Below, in pieces: positions 26,521-31,917 of a stretch of 64,000 bases of DNA (position 1 is the stretch's first letter; every line of letters begins with the position of its first letter). Both the position numbers and the translations under genes were made by a program. A model generated the notes under the pieces. It was given only the letters and a program-made list of their open reading frames with translations, did not search any database and had not been told where the DNA came from. Source of the DNA: Arenicellales bacterium (GTDB lineage: Bacteria > Pseudomonadota > Gammaproteobacteria > Arenicellales > UBA868); contig JASMBC010000003.1 of assembly GCA_030754035.1 (NCBI GenBank), forward strand, positions 1 through 64,000, written 5' to 3'.

Positions 26521-26668
26521 CTCTTACCTAACACTGATTGAAACCGTTTGCTCATGGCTGCGGCTGGGCGGCTTCCCCTTCGGGATTCCTACAAAAAATC
26601 TATCCCCCTTGTATGGGTTTTTCTATAAGCCGAAGACTTACGGATTTGGGTCAGCGGGGTGTTGGCAG

Positions 26669-26744
26669 CAACTGACCTGACGCCCCCACCAAATCCTCTG
26701 CTCTGGTTGCTTCTCGGTAACAGCAATTAAGATAGCGGTATGAA
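26669..26744 (+). repeat. Dispersed intergenic repeat, copy A
   Basis: GCCCCCACCAAATCCTCTGCTCTGGTTGCTTCTCGGTAACAGCAATTAAGATAGCGGTATGAA; near-identical to copy B. Confidence 0.85.
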
Positions 26745-26786
26745 ACTATTCAAAACTAACCGAAAAAATACCAACAAATATATCCC

Positions 26787-27353
26787 GTGGAACTTCAACT
26801 AATTACAAAGAGGTTAACCTTACGACCTCTTTCAATTAACGATGTGGGTCTGGCCATAGAGATGTTCACGGACGAGCAGGTAATGAAATATGCTGGAGGC
26901 ACAGTTGCAAAGGAGAAGATCATAGAAGAAATGGAGATGTGGACGCACCGTGGTGGTAATGGTTGCATTGGCGTATGGTGTATCTGTGATCGAACTACGG
27001 GAGAAAGTTTTGGCTCCACTGCCTTAACGCCGCTTCCAATAGATAAAGACGATACCGACTGGGAACAGGTGGTCGAAGACCAGTTACCAGATGGTGAGAT
27101 GGAGATTGGATATTTTCTGAAACGGACCGCTTGGGGAAACGGTTATGCGACAGAGGCTGTTGAACGCATATTGCGATTTGCATTTGAGGATTCTCCGCTT
27201 GAGGAGGTCGTGGCCGTTATCGACCCGAAAAACGAAAGTTCAAGGCGGGTGCTCGAAAAGACTGGGTTTTTAAGCACGGGGATTCGACGTGCTTATGGAG
27301 AAGACTTGCCGGGATTCCAGATTATTCGAGAGAATTGGTTGGGTAGGCAGTAA
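26787..27353 (+). CDS. GNAT family N-acetyltransferase (RimJ/RimL-like)
   Basis: LITKRLTLRPLSINDVGLAIEMF..., EIGYFLKRTAWGNGYATEAVERILRFAFE, NESSRRVLEKTGF. Confidence 0.9.
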   Translation: MELQLITKRLTLRPLSINDVGLAIEMFTDEQVMKYAGGTVAKEKIIEEMEMWTHRGGNGCIGVWCICDRTTGESFGSTALTPLPIDKDDTDWEQVVEDQLPDGEMEIGYFLKRTAWGNGYATEAVERILRFAFEDSPLEEVVAVIDPKNESSRRVLEKTGFLSTGIRRAYGEDLPGFQIIRENWLGRQ

Positions 27354-27425
27354 CTAACCTAACCTCCCCCACCAAATCCTCTGCTCTGGTTGCTTCTCGG
27401 TAACAGGAATAAAATAGCGGTATGA
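27351..27425 (+). repeat. Dispersed intergenic repeat, copy B
   Basis: CTAACCTAACCTCCCCCACCAAATCCTCTGCTCTGGTTGCTTCTCGGTAACAGGAATAAAATAGCGGTATGAA, starting at the GNAT stop codon. Confidence 0.85.
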
Positions 27426-27474
27426 AGCATCTGGGATTAAGCTAAGCCAATAAATTAGCTGTAACTATTTTCAA

Positions 27475-27909
27475 ATGTTTTGGAGATTAATAAATCCGCT
27501 TACCATAGCGATTGCAAAATCGCCTCTGCATTTCTTGATCAGTCAGAATCTTGTTGTATTGAATTTTGTAGGAATCAGAACTGGTAAAAACTATGCACTT
27601 CCAGTAAGTTATTTTGAGGAGCCAGAGGGAAAACTAAGTTGTGTAACAGATAGACGAAATATCTGGTGGAGGAATCTTCTTCAAACATCTAGCATCAAAA
27701 TTTTGTACAAAGGTAGACTAACTGATGCTCTAGTTACCGTTGAGCATGAGAATAATAGGATAATTGCCGATCAACTAGAAGCCCTTTGTTCACACAGCAG
27801 AATTGATGGATATTTTGCTAAAGTCGGTTATGAAAATGGCAAGCCAATACGAAAAGATATAGAGGAAGCCGCCTCAATAATGACTTTGATACAACTTTCT
27901 ATATATTGA
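27475..27909 (+). CDS. Small protein resembling deazaflavin (F420)-dependent nitroreductase family
   Basis: FVGIRTGKNYALPVSYFEEPEGKLSCVTDRRNIWWRNLLQTSSIKILYKGRL; Ddn-like pattern. Family assignment tentative. Confidence 0.55.
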   Translation: MFWRLINPLTIAIAKSPLHFLISQNLVVLNFVGIRTGKNYALPVSYFEEPEGKLSCVTDRRNIWWRNLLQTSSIKILYKGRLTDALVTVEHENNRIIADQLEALCSHSRIDGYFAKVGYENGKPIRKDIEEAASIMTLIQLSIY

Positions 27910-27945
27910 ACGTTTTGATCAAGGTTGCAGTTTTAGCGGGCTGTT

Positions 27946-27967
27946 GGGAATAAGATAGCGGTATGAA
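27946..27967 (+). repeat. Dispersed intergenic repeat, partial copy C (right end only)
   Basis: GGGAATAAGATAGCGGTATGAAG matches the right arm of copies A, B and F. Confidence 0.6.
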
Positions 27968-27995
27968 GTATCTGTTTGCCATATCTTGAGGAGAC

Positions 27996-28415
27996 ATGGA
28001 AATGAAAATCGATGGAGGTTGTTTGTGCACGAACGTCACCTATGAGGCAGAGGTGAACCCAGAGAGAGTTGTTATTTGTCATTGCACGGATTGCCAGACC
28101 CACTCTGGAACCGCATACGGGGTCGTTGTGGGCATCATTGACGAGTGCTTTCATCTATTGAGCGGCACCTTGAAGACCTACGAGAAAATTGCCGAAAGTG
28201 GAACGGTCAGAGCGCTCGCATTCTGCCCAGAGTGTGGCACCCGTATTTACGCAAAGACGGTTGGAGAGGGTTCATCCCTCTTCGGATTGCGCGTCGGAAC
28301 TGTACGCCAACGCGCTCAACTAATACCTAAAGCCCAAGTTTGGTGCCGATCAGCGCAAGAGTGGGTGGGCGACTTAACATCGATTCCAAAATACGAAAAA
28401 CAGCCAACATTGTAA
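27996..28415 (+). CDS. GFA/CENP-V family zinc-binding protein
   Basis: GGCLCTNVTYEAEV, VICHCTDCQTHSGTAYG, AFCPECGTRIYAKT: GFA cysteine pattern. Confidence 0.87.
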   Translation: MEMKIDGGCLCTNVTYEAEVNPERVVICHCTDCQTHSGTAYGVVVGIIDECFHLLSGTLKTYEKIAESGTVRALAFCPECGTRIYAKTVGEGSSLFGLRVGTVRQRAQLIPKAQVWCRSAQEWVGDLTSIPKYEKQPTL

Positions 28416-28450
28416 TAAGGCCAGCTCCTCACTAGCACAAGTGGTAACCG

Positions 28451-28509
28451 CTAACTAATCCAACCTCTCCACCAAATCCTCCGCTCTTAAGTGATAGGGT
28501 AGCGGTATG
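28451..28509 (+). repeat. Dispersed intergenic repeat, copy D (variant)
   Basis: CTAACTAATCCAACCTCTCCACCAAATCCTCCGCTCTTAAGTGATAGGGTAGCGGTATGG. Confidence 0.7.
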
Positions 28510-28562
28510 GCTTACGGAGCGGTGAGTTTGAAACGCACATTGGTAACAGTCAGGAGAAAATC

Positions 28563-28943
28563 ATGTCTCATCCTATAACTATAGAATATCTCGATGAAAT
28601 TTGTCAGGAATTTAACCGGCAAGACGTGGATGCGATTCTTTCCCACTTTGCCACAGACTGTGTCTGGCTGATGGCACGGGGTCCCAATTCACCGGAGGGC
28701 CGGCGCTGTGTCGGGAAAGAGGAGATTGGCACTGTTCTTAGAAAGCGCTACGTCGAGATTCCCGATATGCGCTGGGAAGAGATGCGCCATTGGGTATGTG
28801 ACGAAACCAAGGCCATTTCGGAATGGGTCGTACGCGGTACACCAGGAAGCGGAGAGGCATTTGAGTATCTTGGTTGTGATCTTTGGGAGTTTAAAGATGG
28901 CTTGGTGACTAAAAAGGACACCTACTGGAAATCTATTTCATAA
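28563..28943 (+). CDS. NTF2/SnoaL-like family protein
   Basis: 126 aa; EFNRQDVDAILSHFATDCVWLMARGPNSPEGRRCVGKEEIGTVLRKRY..., YLGCDLWEFKDGLVTKKDTYWK. Confidence 0.8.
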   Translation: MSHPITIEYLDEICQEFNRQDVDAILSHFATDCVWLMARGPNSPEGRRCVGKEEIGTVLRKRYVEIPDMRWEEMRHWVCDETKAISEWVVRGTPGSGEAFEYLGCDLWEFKDGLVTKKDTYWKSIS

Positions 28944-28970
28944 GGCCCGTGACAATGGAGTAGGCGTTAG

Positions 28971-29012
28971 TCTCCCCGCCAGATCCTGTGCTCTTAAATG
29001 CGCATAGCGCAT
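28971..29012 (+). repeat. Dispersed intergenic repeat, copy E (left arm)
   Basis: CTCCCCGCCAGATCCTGTGCTCTTAAATGCGCATAGCGC matches the left/centre of copies D and F. Confidence 0.55.
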
Positions 29013-29120
29013 CTGCCGTTACGCGTCTGATGGCTGCCATTTTGAAATCTCACTGTGCCAAAAGTATGCCAAGCGAGAGTTCTCGAGAAAGTTAGGCTGG
29101 CGCTTTGCACGTAGCCGGCT

Positions 29121-30050
29121 GTGGAAAACGACGGACAAACGTCGATGCGTGATACGGAATCAACCCGCCGGCGGTTCTGGTTAGGTAGCGCCGCTGCCCT
29201 GATGTCGGCCGTTGCGTTTTCGTCCAATGTCGCACTGTCGAAGCTGGCTTATGACTTTGGCACGAATCTGCATGCGCTCAATCTAATCCGGGCTGCTGTT
29301 TTTTTAGGTTGTCTGCTGGTGGCGGTATGGTTGTCCGGCTCTCAAGTTTCTATAAATCGGAATGAACTGTATCGTTGTCTAGCTCTCGGGGTATTGCTGT
29401 GTGCCGAGATGTATCTGTTGTTGGCGTCAATTCTTTTTATTCCAGTCGCTCTGGCAATACTCGTTTTCTATACTTATCCGATAATGATCGCCCTTTGGAC
29501 CTGGCGCACAGGGCAATGCCATTTTTCTTACTTTGGTCTGGGTGTTATGGCACTGGCCTTTATCGGCTTGATTATCACCTTGACTGGATCGGGTAGGCTG
29601 TTGGTAGGCTGGGATGGCAGAAACGGTATTGCCCTTGCCTTCATTGCCGCGATTTGCCTGGCGGCTATACTGCTGCTTAGCGAACGGGTTCTGGCAAGGC
29701 AGCCGGCAAAGATCATGATGCTCTACATGCTGTTCGGTGCAACAGCTGTGGTAGGTTTTGTGTCCTTATTTATCGCCGAGTTAACTTGGCCGGCGTCCCT
29801 CCAGGGGTGGCTGGCTTTGTGCGGCAGTGCCGCCTTGTACGTTGTAGCCACAATGCTGTTATTCAAGGCGGTTGACCTAGTCGGCTCCCTGCAGACAGCC
29901 ATTATCGATAACACCTCGCCCGTATGGGCCATGATTCTTGGGGTCATTGTGCTGGGGCAGTGGCTGACTGCACAGCAGGTGATGGGGGCGAGTGTCACGG
30001 TTGCCGCGGTGATGTTACTGCAGTGGATAGCGCGACCAAAGACTCGGTAG
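29121..30050 (+). CDS. EamA/DMT family transporter
   Basis: About 10 TM segments; ALMSAVAFSSNVALSKLAYDFGTNLHALNLIRAAVFL and a C-terminal EamA repeat (DNTSPVWAMILGVIVLGQWLTAQQVMGASV). Confidence 0.87.
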   Translation: MENDGQTSMRDTESTRRRFWLGSAAALMSAVAFSSNVALSKLAYDFGTNLHALNLIRAAVFLGCLLVAVWLSGSQVSINRNELYRCLALGVLLCAEMYLLLASILFIPVALAILVFYTYPIMIALWTWRTGQCHFSYFGLGVMALAFIGLIITLTGSGRLLVGWDGRNGIALAFIAAICLAAILLLSERVLARQPAKIMMLYMLFGATAVVGFVSLFIAELTWPASLQGWLALCGSAALYVVATMLLFKAVDLVGSLQTAIIDNTSPVWAMILGVIVLGQWLTAQQVMGASVTVAAVMLLQWIARPKTR

Positions 30051-30144
30051 ACGTTATGAACTGATACACGAGGTGGACCCGCTCATCTGCCCCCTTGCTC
30101 AGGTATTACCATAAGCGATTAAAGCCGGCGTTCGTCCAATTTCT

Positions 30145-30219
30145 GGGGGGCGTATACGGGGCAACTTCTAACCTCTCCCTTTACCATTGCTAGGCTCTAA
30201 AGTTACGTATACGCCCCCC
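30145..30219. repeat. Inverted repeat, 13-bp perfect arms GGGGGGCGTATAC / GTATACGCCCCCC
   Basis: Arms at 30145-30157 and 30207-30219, with an additional GGGGCAA (30158) / TTGCCCC (30225) pair. Confidence 0.85.
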
Positions 30220-30399
30220 ATATATTGCCCCTACGGCCTTTCTAAAGTAGTAGCAGATAGGCTCGTCCCTCTCTTCGCAGGGGCAATGCAAATCTCGGGT
30301 TCGTGTAAAACCCCTTAAATAGGCTGATTCTGGTACCCCCTTGAAAGCACCCTTCGTTTGCCCATTCACCTACAAGAAGTGGGGGAGTAGGATAAGGCA

Positions 30400-31455
30400 A
30401 TGAAACGCCTTCTTTTCTTATTGCTGGCGACTACTTTGCTGGTGATTGCTCCGCTCACCACTTTTGCCTGTCCAGAAGGTCAAAAAGCAAATAGCCGGAC
30501 GGGTGATTGTGAGCCGATACCGGGTCGGAAAAAAGCAGACCCTAACAAGATCAAACTAGATTCCTATGATATTGAATCTACTTTGCCGTCAACTGCGTCT
30601 GATTGGAGCAAAAACTCCCTCAAAGTTGACGCGACGTGGTCGTTCCCGGCTGAGGGAAAGCAGCCGTACCCGCTAGTCATCTATCTCCTCTCAAGCGGGG
30701 GGTACTGGAGTAGCTATGATGGGAAATGGATTAAATGGTTCAACAATCAAGGCTTTGCCACCTTATGGGTTGATCAGTACACCGCGCGAGGTATGAGCCT
30801 TAAAAAGGGTCTTGGTACCAAACAAAGTGGAATGTCGGATGCCTCCTATGTGAGCGATGCGTATGCCGCGATTAGAACAGCGAAAGCCGATCCGCGTATC
30901 GATCCCGAACGCATTGTAACTTTTGGGATGTCTTGGGGCGGTGGTGTGCAAATGTATTTAATGAGCCAATGGTTTCAGAAACAACTAGGTAATGGCAACG
31001 TCAATATTGCCGGCCATATCGCCTTGGGGCCAGCGTGTTATTTAACGGTTGAAAAACCTAAACCCACTACTGGCAAGATGCTTATGCTGTTGGGTGAGAA
31101 GGATAATTGGAATCAGCCAAAACCGTGCAGGAATTACGCAAAACGCCTACAGCAAGCTGGAGCGTCAATTACAGTGGAGACTGTGAAAGATGCAAACCAC
31201 GCTTGGGATTTGGATAAGACTACGAAGAGCTATCGTGCTGTTGTCTACCATTGCGATATTCGTTTCGACCCTGAAACGATGAACGCAAGAAATGTAGAGG
31301 AAGGGATAAAGGTCAATTTTTCGAGAGATGGTTGGGGGAGTCTTTGGGATAAATGTGAAAAGGAGGCAAAAGTAACCACTGGGGGAACAAAGAAGCAACT
31401 TAACTGGACACGTGAGCGTGTGAGAAAACATCTTGCAGACACGCTTGGTATGTAG
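30400..31455 (+). CDS. Secreted alpha/beta hydrolase (dienelactone hydrolase-like)
   Basis: Signal peptide MKRLLFLLLATTLLVIAPLTTFACP; ATLWVDQYTARG, VTFGMSWGGGVQMYLMS (GxSxG-like), DANHAWDLD. Confidence 0.78.
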   Translation: MKRLLFLLLATTLLVIAPLTTFACPEGQKANSRTGDCEPIPGRKKADPNKIKLDSYDIESTLPSTASDWSKNSLKVDATWSFPAEGKQPYPLVIYLLSSGGYWSSYDGKWIKWFNNQGFATLWVDQYTARGMSLKKGLGTKQSGMSDASYVSDAYAAIRTAKADPRIDPERIVTFGMSWGGGVQMYLMSQWFQKQLGNGNVNIAGHIALGPACYLTVEKPKPTTGKMLMLLGEKDNWNQPKPCRNYAKRLQQAGASITVETVKDANHAWDLDKTTKSYRAVVYHCDIRFDPETMNARNVEEGIKVNFSRDGWGSLWDKCEKEAKVTTGGTKKQLNWTRERVRKHLADTLGM

Positions 31456-31622
31456 TCTGAAAGGTATACGGTGTTAGTGACTGTTGGGAATGAAGCAAAC
31501 AGGGCATACAACGTAGACCCTGCACAGGGGGATTTGTCCCCATTCATGACTACACCAGACTTAGTACAGTGCGGTAAAAAAATAGGCAACCACTCAGCAA
31601 CATAACCGGTTAAGTCATCACA

Positions 31623-31659
31623 CCTGAATCCTGCCGGTCATCGACCGGCGGGATTCAGG
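31623..31659. terminator. Strong hairpin, 16-bp stem with one wobble
   Basis: CCTGAATCCTGCCGGT-CATCG-ACCGGCGGGATTCAGG, downstream of the hydrolase. No clear T-tract, so the terminator role is tentative. Confidence 0.55.
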
Positions 31660-31734
31660 GTATACCCAGATGCCTTAAGATGGTGATGTAGTAGCGTCGT
31701 ATTCCTCCTTTGCGTCTACCTTCCCCACGCTGAT

Positions 31735-31837
31735 ACCTAACCCAACCTTCACCCAATCCTCAGCCCATAAATGCGTATATCGAATTAGTATTACCCTCTG
31801 GTCGCCTCTCTGTAACAGGAATAAGATAGCGGCATGA
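31735..31837 (+). repeat. Dispersed intergenic repeat, copy F (longest form)
   Basis: CTAACCCAACCTTCACCCAATCCTCAGCCCATAAATGCGTATAT...CTCTGGTCGCCTCTCTGTAACAGGAATAAGATAGCGGCATGA. Confidence 0.75.
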
Positions 31838-31917
31838 GACAGGCGATAGTCATTCTCCTTGTGGGCTTCTTTACTTGGAGCGCGCACAGTTCAGCCCAGA
31901 GCAGGGTCAGGAATTGA
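31834..31917 (+). pseudogene. 27-codon stump: signal peptide followed by early stop
   Basis: ATG at 31834: MRQAIVILLVGFFTWSAHSSAQSRVRN*; hydrophobic core and AxA-like site, immediately after repeat copy F and at the island edge. Confidence 0.5.

Follow-up and report, generated by a model that had tools for sequence, protein, structure and literature searches.

Elements of the CIME and ICE type accrete in tandem at a single att site at the 3′ end of a gene and restore the target gene, and in phage Mx8 the attP site lies inside intP. The cassette arrays described here differ from both in that the apparent target is the integrase gene of a resident platform and the units are many single genes. 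Suicidal, or SSV-type, integrases of archaea carry an attachment site of about 40-50 bp inside the int gene, which is split by integration (PMC8371274), and a review regards self-disrupting recombinases as confined to archaea (PMC8371274). In our case the site would likewise lie within the int gene (as in PMC8371274), yet at the catalytic-tyrosine codon of its 3′ end, and the gene appears to be restored, with no int body split at the core. In additive flexible genomic islands and other tRNA-targeting islands, cassettes accumulate at a tRNA gene, and repeats of the 3′ end of the target form their borders (PMC4119200, PMC10872708; Islander, PMC4383910). Here too cassettes accumulate beside tRNA genes and int adjoins the tRNA, but the border repeat is the 3′ end of int rather than that of the tRNA, and the modules mostly hold one gene. 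With integrons the arrays share a tyrosine recombinase at the end of a mostly single-gene array, short recurrent sites, integrase-less arrays and exchange of cassettes. In contrast to integrons, the enzyme is not IntI, and the recurrent site, formed by the coding 3′ end of its gene, resembles a double-stranded palindrome rather than a folded attC. Genes mostly face the recombinase, a promoter-like block is present in many modules, and the platform lies at tRNA genes. We found no published description of cassette arrays bordered by an integrase tail in the open-access literature.

The window is a stretch of 64,000 nucleotides from an Arenicellales bacterium whose genome assembly is fragmented (1.75 Mb, 69% complete). 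On balance, comparison with related genomes favors reading the array in it as a decayed, integrase-less member of an integron-like cassette system on tRNA-linked islands. We regard it as a relic because the window has no integrase gene and no tRNA gene, and a good recombination core only in one repeat copy, E. A first-pass annotation had proposed single-gene modules separated by a conserved intergenic repeat, and six copies (A to F) do lie where it placed them, beyond chance: the 17-mer core of the repeat has five matches in the window versus 0.22 expected, and the 20-mer at its end has four versus 0.00. In a search of the host genome, five of six matches fell in the array, and the sixth was marginal (E = 0.03). 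The annotation took the repeat to be one unit and overlooked that a tyrosine-recombinase gene, read antisense, contributes its 3′ end as the first half; the second half resembles a promoter or leader block in its own right. The repeat is a composite of up to three blocks, L, R and M, and its copies are not uniform. Copies A and B are L fused to R, F is L-spacer-R, D is L with a truncated R, C is M and R without L, and E is L alone. The features are as follows:

26636..26666, + strand: degenerate M-like block before copy A, assigned from sequence; 26650-26704 matches the M.L consensus; no ORF upstream
26672..26704, − strand: L block of copy A (26672-26746), antisense integrase 3′ end, recombination core lost
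26705..26746, + strand: R block of copy A, promoter-like, with −10-like TAAGAT
26787..27353, + strand: module 1, GNAT acetyltransferase (PF13302, 1.9e-30)
27355..27388, − strand: L block of copy B (27355-27426), core lost
27389..27426, + strand: R block of copy B
27475..27909, + strand: module 2, 144-aa protein without family match
27921..27968, + strand: copy C, M (27921-27946) directly joined to R (27947-27968), no L
27996..28415, + strand: module 3, GFA-family protein (PF04828, 1.6e-27)
28456..28510, + strand: copy D, L (28456-28493, antisense integrase tail) and truncated R TAGCGGTATGG
28563..28943, + strand: module 4, SnoaL-like (NTF2 fold) protein (PF12680, 1.2e-16)
28969..29013, − strand: L block of copy E, the best-kept core of the window (ATGCG 28998-29002, CATAG 29003-29007, CGCAT 29008-29012)
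29121..30050, + strand: module 5, EamA transporter (PF00892, 4.4e-18)
30400..31455, + strand: module 6, dienelactone-hydrolase/PHA-depolymerase-like protein with N-terminal hydrophobic stretch (PF01738, 2.1e-07; NF050057 sub-threshold)
31459..31489, + strand: M-like block after module 6, assigned from sequence; 31459-31479 matches M
31738..31788, − strand: L block of copy F (31738-31839), degenerate core ATGCG-TATAT-CGAAT
31796..31839, + strand: R block of copy F, then a 27-codon ORF remnant that resembles a signal peptide

With their cores gone, copies A, B and D could not keep the local array active. Pfam matches place genes of the array in the GNAT, GFA, SnoaL, EamA and dienelactone-hydrolase types, while the label 'Ddn-like' finds no support in Pfam or NCBIfam. 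The region is AT-richer, as had been noted, with a GC content of 0.38-0.55 across 26.5-31.9 kb versus about 0.58-0.66 in the near flanks. A known RNA element was rejected as the identity of the repeat, with no match in Rfam. Between the EamA and hydrolase modules, at 30142-30232, lies an imperfect inverted repeat, GGGGGGCGTATACGGGGCAAC ... GTATACGCCCCCCATATATTGCCCC, which resembles a hairpin (GGGGcATAC..GTATaCCCC) found directly after L elsewhere (L084 at 134, L096, L136).

The L block (56 bp, antisense) corresponds to the 3′ end of a tyrosine-recombinase gene. It comprises the stop codon and the codons ...MRYTHLRAEDLVGRLG, the catalytic tyrosine included, and its opposite strand reads ...MLMRYTHLRAEDLVGRLG-stop, the C-terminus of a PF00589 recombinase. 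A recombinase had been suggested as worth seeking in relatives with arrays, and a tyrosine recombinase was indeed found there, outside the window. Full-length int genes encode 325-345 aa with PF00589 E-values of about 1e-26 to 1e-29 (4e-26 in one) and occur in genomes G010, G006, G004, G016 and G024, with more distant ones in other families of the order. The protein has the PF00589 domain and a catalytic Tyr near the C-terminus that mark a tyrosine recombinase, and in sequence alignment its YTH motif falls on the YT of XerA, of which the Tyr is the catalytic tyrosine. At several loci, int is followed by repeats that copy its own last ~45-55 bp, among them three in contig G010:C10 and one at 91% in G010:C37, and the 3′ ends of full-length int genes in relatives face arrays of the kind seen in the window. 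Profile iteration yielded an alignment of 109 distinct L sites. Among these, the 68 copies that clearly belong to cassettes have in common a 56-bp stretch that begins at the stop codon of int and reaches to two codons before MRYTH, and information drops to background on either side. Their mean mutual identity is about 0.66-0.70, and the genomes abound in 56-bp direct repeats. Conservation is lowest at third codon positions (0.94 versus 1.22 and 1.27 bits), which we take as a trace of coding history. A change of tail type in the int of G010:C10 is not claimed as a tail swap; the altered residues are confined to the last codons and do not run from the core.

Each of 98 cassette L copies was compared with full int genes. 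In 46 of them, homology to the integrase stops within 12 bp, at +27 to +38, with a peak at +31 to +34; breaks spread uniformly over the observed range of 0-204 would place about 6 of 98 in this interval. The peak lies immediately past the inverted repeat ATGCG-TATAG-CGCAT, which covers the catalytic-Tyr codon, and the sequences joined at the breakpoint are of more than 20 unrelated kinds. About half of the copies break elsewhere, nine of them at +13 and the rest up to +204. Those nine, which include A and B of the window, are joined at +13 to R and may go back to one event spread by descent, since all of them share R. The breakpoints of L-R fusions and M-R junctions lie away from the core. No int body ending at the core was seen, so insertion appears to leave int unsplit; full-length int genes adjoin cassettes, which sets the enzyme apart from suicidal integrases.

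In relatives, int genes are co-oriented with a tRNA gene and lie about 100 bp downstream of its 3′ end; the tRNAs concerned are Pro(cgg), Val(cac), Ala(cgc), Met, Phe, Lys and Gly. Incomplete tRNA copies that retain the 3′ end are dispersed within or close to arrays, and several of them start around the anticodon loop (nt 24-33). Because int adjoins tRNAs and partial tRNA 3′ copies lie near arrays, the int-bearing loci are probably tRNA islands; an island complete at either end within a single contig was seen neither in the window nor in the relatives. Several L copies belong to mini-islands composed of a tRNA or tRNA fragment, a leader, an internally deleted int and L (L046, L157, L137, L178). 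At L137 (5553-5860), tRNA-Met is followed by an in-frame miniature int, formed by internal deletion, in which the start codon region is fused to ITGHNNPCMLLRYTHLR. At L189 (5095-5150; G003:C148), the 3′ part of tRNA-Pro is joined to L at the common word AATCCTCT.

Modules are common to different genera at about 79-97% identity, with boundaries at or near repeats and with different neighbors, a pattern consistent with an array of mobile, mostly single-gene modules. Module 2 of the window is found in G006:C6 (27410-27922, 90%) and in G004:C1 (27435-27926, 87%), module 3 in G002:C99 (27947-28330, 86%, starting at the R core) and module 5 in G001:C49 (29112-30034, 78.5%), each beside other genes. 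Elsewhere, a module 94% identical in G006 and G010 stops at ATGCGTA inside the core, and one module is 97% identical between G002 and G006. We also compared the gene content of the oxyR locus across relatives, as had been proposed: the array is absent there. In genus g5, oxyR and an abhydrolase gene flank unrelated genes, while in g3, g4 and g6 oxyR is followed directly by the acyl-CoA ligase (window 33061). No L, M, R or int is present at this locus in g3, g4, g5 and g6 beyond a single weak L-like match (L115) inside oxyR. Since the orthologous locus lacks the array, we consider it a lineage-specific addition. The cassette-like reading in the first-pass annotation therefore stands as far as modules cross genera, the orthologous locus is free of the array and an integrase exists outside the window, but the system is not an integron. 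Genome G011 was rejected as an independent strain for judging gain or loss; its contig C49 (L048) is 99-99.7% identical to the window, with an adjoining stretch at 71%, and probably derives from the same population or is misbinned. A further 5 kb (L036 156-5153 and L049 1-5000) is 99.5% identical between two genera (G006 and G002), reflecting either very recent transfer or misbinned contigs.

The R block is a conserved 27 bp, found in 28 copies. At 25 of the 28, a same-strand ORF of at least 60 codons starts within 138 bp, the distance being 0-85 bp and mostly 0-55, with one case of 138. Its TAAGAT has four invariant positions (TAnnAT), with a weak −35-like box at a distance of 17 nt, and R is probably a promoter. 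No exact match to the block is present in viral contigs. The M block reads as a conserved C-terminal peptide, FTVLVGCWE/Q*, and is on this ground probably the remnant of a cassette gene; the idea that it is half of a recombination site was rejected for the same coding character. M.R junctions without any L occur. The peptide KAERFTVLVGCWE/Q* (KAKKFTVLVECLQ* in G010) ends many short, otherwise unrelated frames (L040, L042, L036, L177, L184 and others). A single hairpin formed by M.L was dropped as a candidate, with z-scores of −2.7/−3.0 in one copy and no such fold in two others tested.

These comparisons suggest how such arrays may grow. The platform would be a tRNA gene with int about 100 bp downstream in the same orientation, and the last 56 bp of int would double as the attachment site L. 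Recombination between the L of a circular cassette and the one that ends int would take place through the core ATGCG-TATAG-CGCAT that spans the catalytic-Tyr codon. The cassette would land beside int and provide it with a fresh ...YTHLRAEDLVGRLG tail that keeps the gene open, while the old tail would be pushed outwards to become the border of the next cassette. Cassette genes would mostly face int, with R, the probable promoter, on the 5′ side of many of them. The circular form of the cassettes, the precise point of crossover, the action of Int on L, the renewal of the tail and the promoter function of R are all inferred from comparison; among the family genomes, which are fragmented and one per species, we saw no circular cassette or strand exchange, and no cassette gained or lost between strains where int ends. 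Recombination of Int at L would explain the sharp 56-bp block and the fixed joint at the Tyr codon, the likeness of the copies to the resident int and their codon-like conservation where they are non-coding. It would also explain gene direction: in 48 of 64 cases the nearest (left-hand) ORF that ends at L is oriented towards int.

The main rival, which we think unlikely, is that the arrays are graveyards of tRNA islands that inserted repeatedly at tRNAs and mostly lost int by internal deletion, L being a leftover and the modules non-autonomous islands mobilized via tRNA sites. The position of int at the tRNAs named above, the tRNA 3′ fragments in or near arrays, the mini-islands with a deleted int and L, and some longer int tails with scattered ends all speak for this history. 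Such accretion and deletion accounts for the mini-islands but not for the fixed joint, as random deletion would not gather 46 of the 98 breakpoints into a 12-bp interval and join them to over 20 unrelated sequences; moreover, our search found no tRNA fragment in most arrays, that of the window included. A mixture, with tRNA islands as platforms and L as a second site, is possible. The joint also weighs against L as mere homology for RecA-dependent or homology-facilitated recombination, through which modules would be exchanged without a site-specific step. Abundant 56-bp direct repeats of about 70% mutual identity and the off-core breakpoints of L-R fusions and M-R junctions fit such exchange, but that identity is low for RecA, and the joint peaks just past the palindrome at the catalytic-Tyr codon instead of falling anywhere in the repeat, which makes this explanation improbable.

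An R block that is by itself the mobile or regulatory unit, a promoter-bearing MITE- or REP-like element with L as a passenger, would suit its conserved ~27 bp, its usual place before a same-strand ORF and its −10-like motif and spacing. We judge it very improbable, given that L copies without R are far more common (109 L versus 28 R) and that a shuffle-calibrated scan for consensus promoters found no excess in the region and did not list R. The MITE/REP alternative, already raised in the first-pass annotation, would alone leave the integrase-tail identity and the fixed breakpoint unexplained. Least credible of all is a bona fide integron or CALIN (an attC array without integrase), despite the small single-gene modules, the one dominant orientation, the cassette-like cargo and the AT-richer region. 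The integrases score 23-32 bits with TIGR02249 versus the IntI cut-off of 265, and none lies in the window; the recurrent site, unlike attI, is the 3′ end of int, so that L is int coding sequence. An attC-like hairpin in the repeat is not borne out either, as on neither strand does L.R fold more stably than its shuffles (z about +1.5), in keeping with the earlier remark that neither paired attC core sites nor an integrase could be found.

Under recombination of Int at L, the marine hosts appear to amass rows of genes through insertion into the last codons of the gene for the inserting enzyme. We tentatively raise the idea that these gene-capture platforms form a class apart from integrons, where the catalytic-Tyr codon of the recombinase would be the insertion site and each cassette would renew the C-terminal tail, with enzyme and site co-evolving. 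If true, cassette arrays arose a second time in marine gammaproteobacteria, with another tyrosine recombinase and without a folded attC, and tools that seek IntI and attC would miss them. An attachment site on the active-site codon would tie each insertion to the keeping of a working enzyme and make enzyme-site co-evolution directly testable, and the 3′ tail of int would be a simple sequence tag for hidden gene-capture arrays in metagenomes.

Matches to the window consensus occur in 20 of 33 family genomes and to the M.L consensus in 25 of 33, with up to 28 matches per genome. Named records that carry the same block are marine gammaproteobacterial MAGs, such as 'Acidiferrobacteraceae bacterium NP54'. 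Homologues of int in other families of the order also sit at tRNAs, and tail repeats were clear in none of the nine loci with more than 1 kb downstream; in viral contigs, they were found at none of 55 homologues. As far as could be seen among relatives in the order and in viruses, the tail array thus appears to be a feature of the host family. In genus g5 arrays, small genes of ~90-100 aa are repeated beside L (L090 3732-4034; L154, L166, L169, L144), in tandem in L154, and presumably resemble Nif11-type leader peptides.
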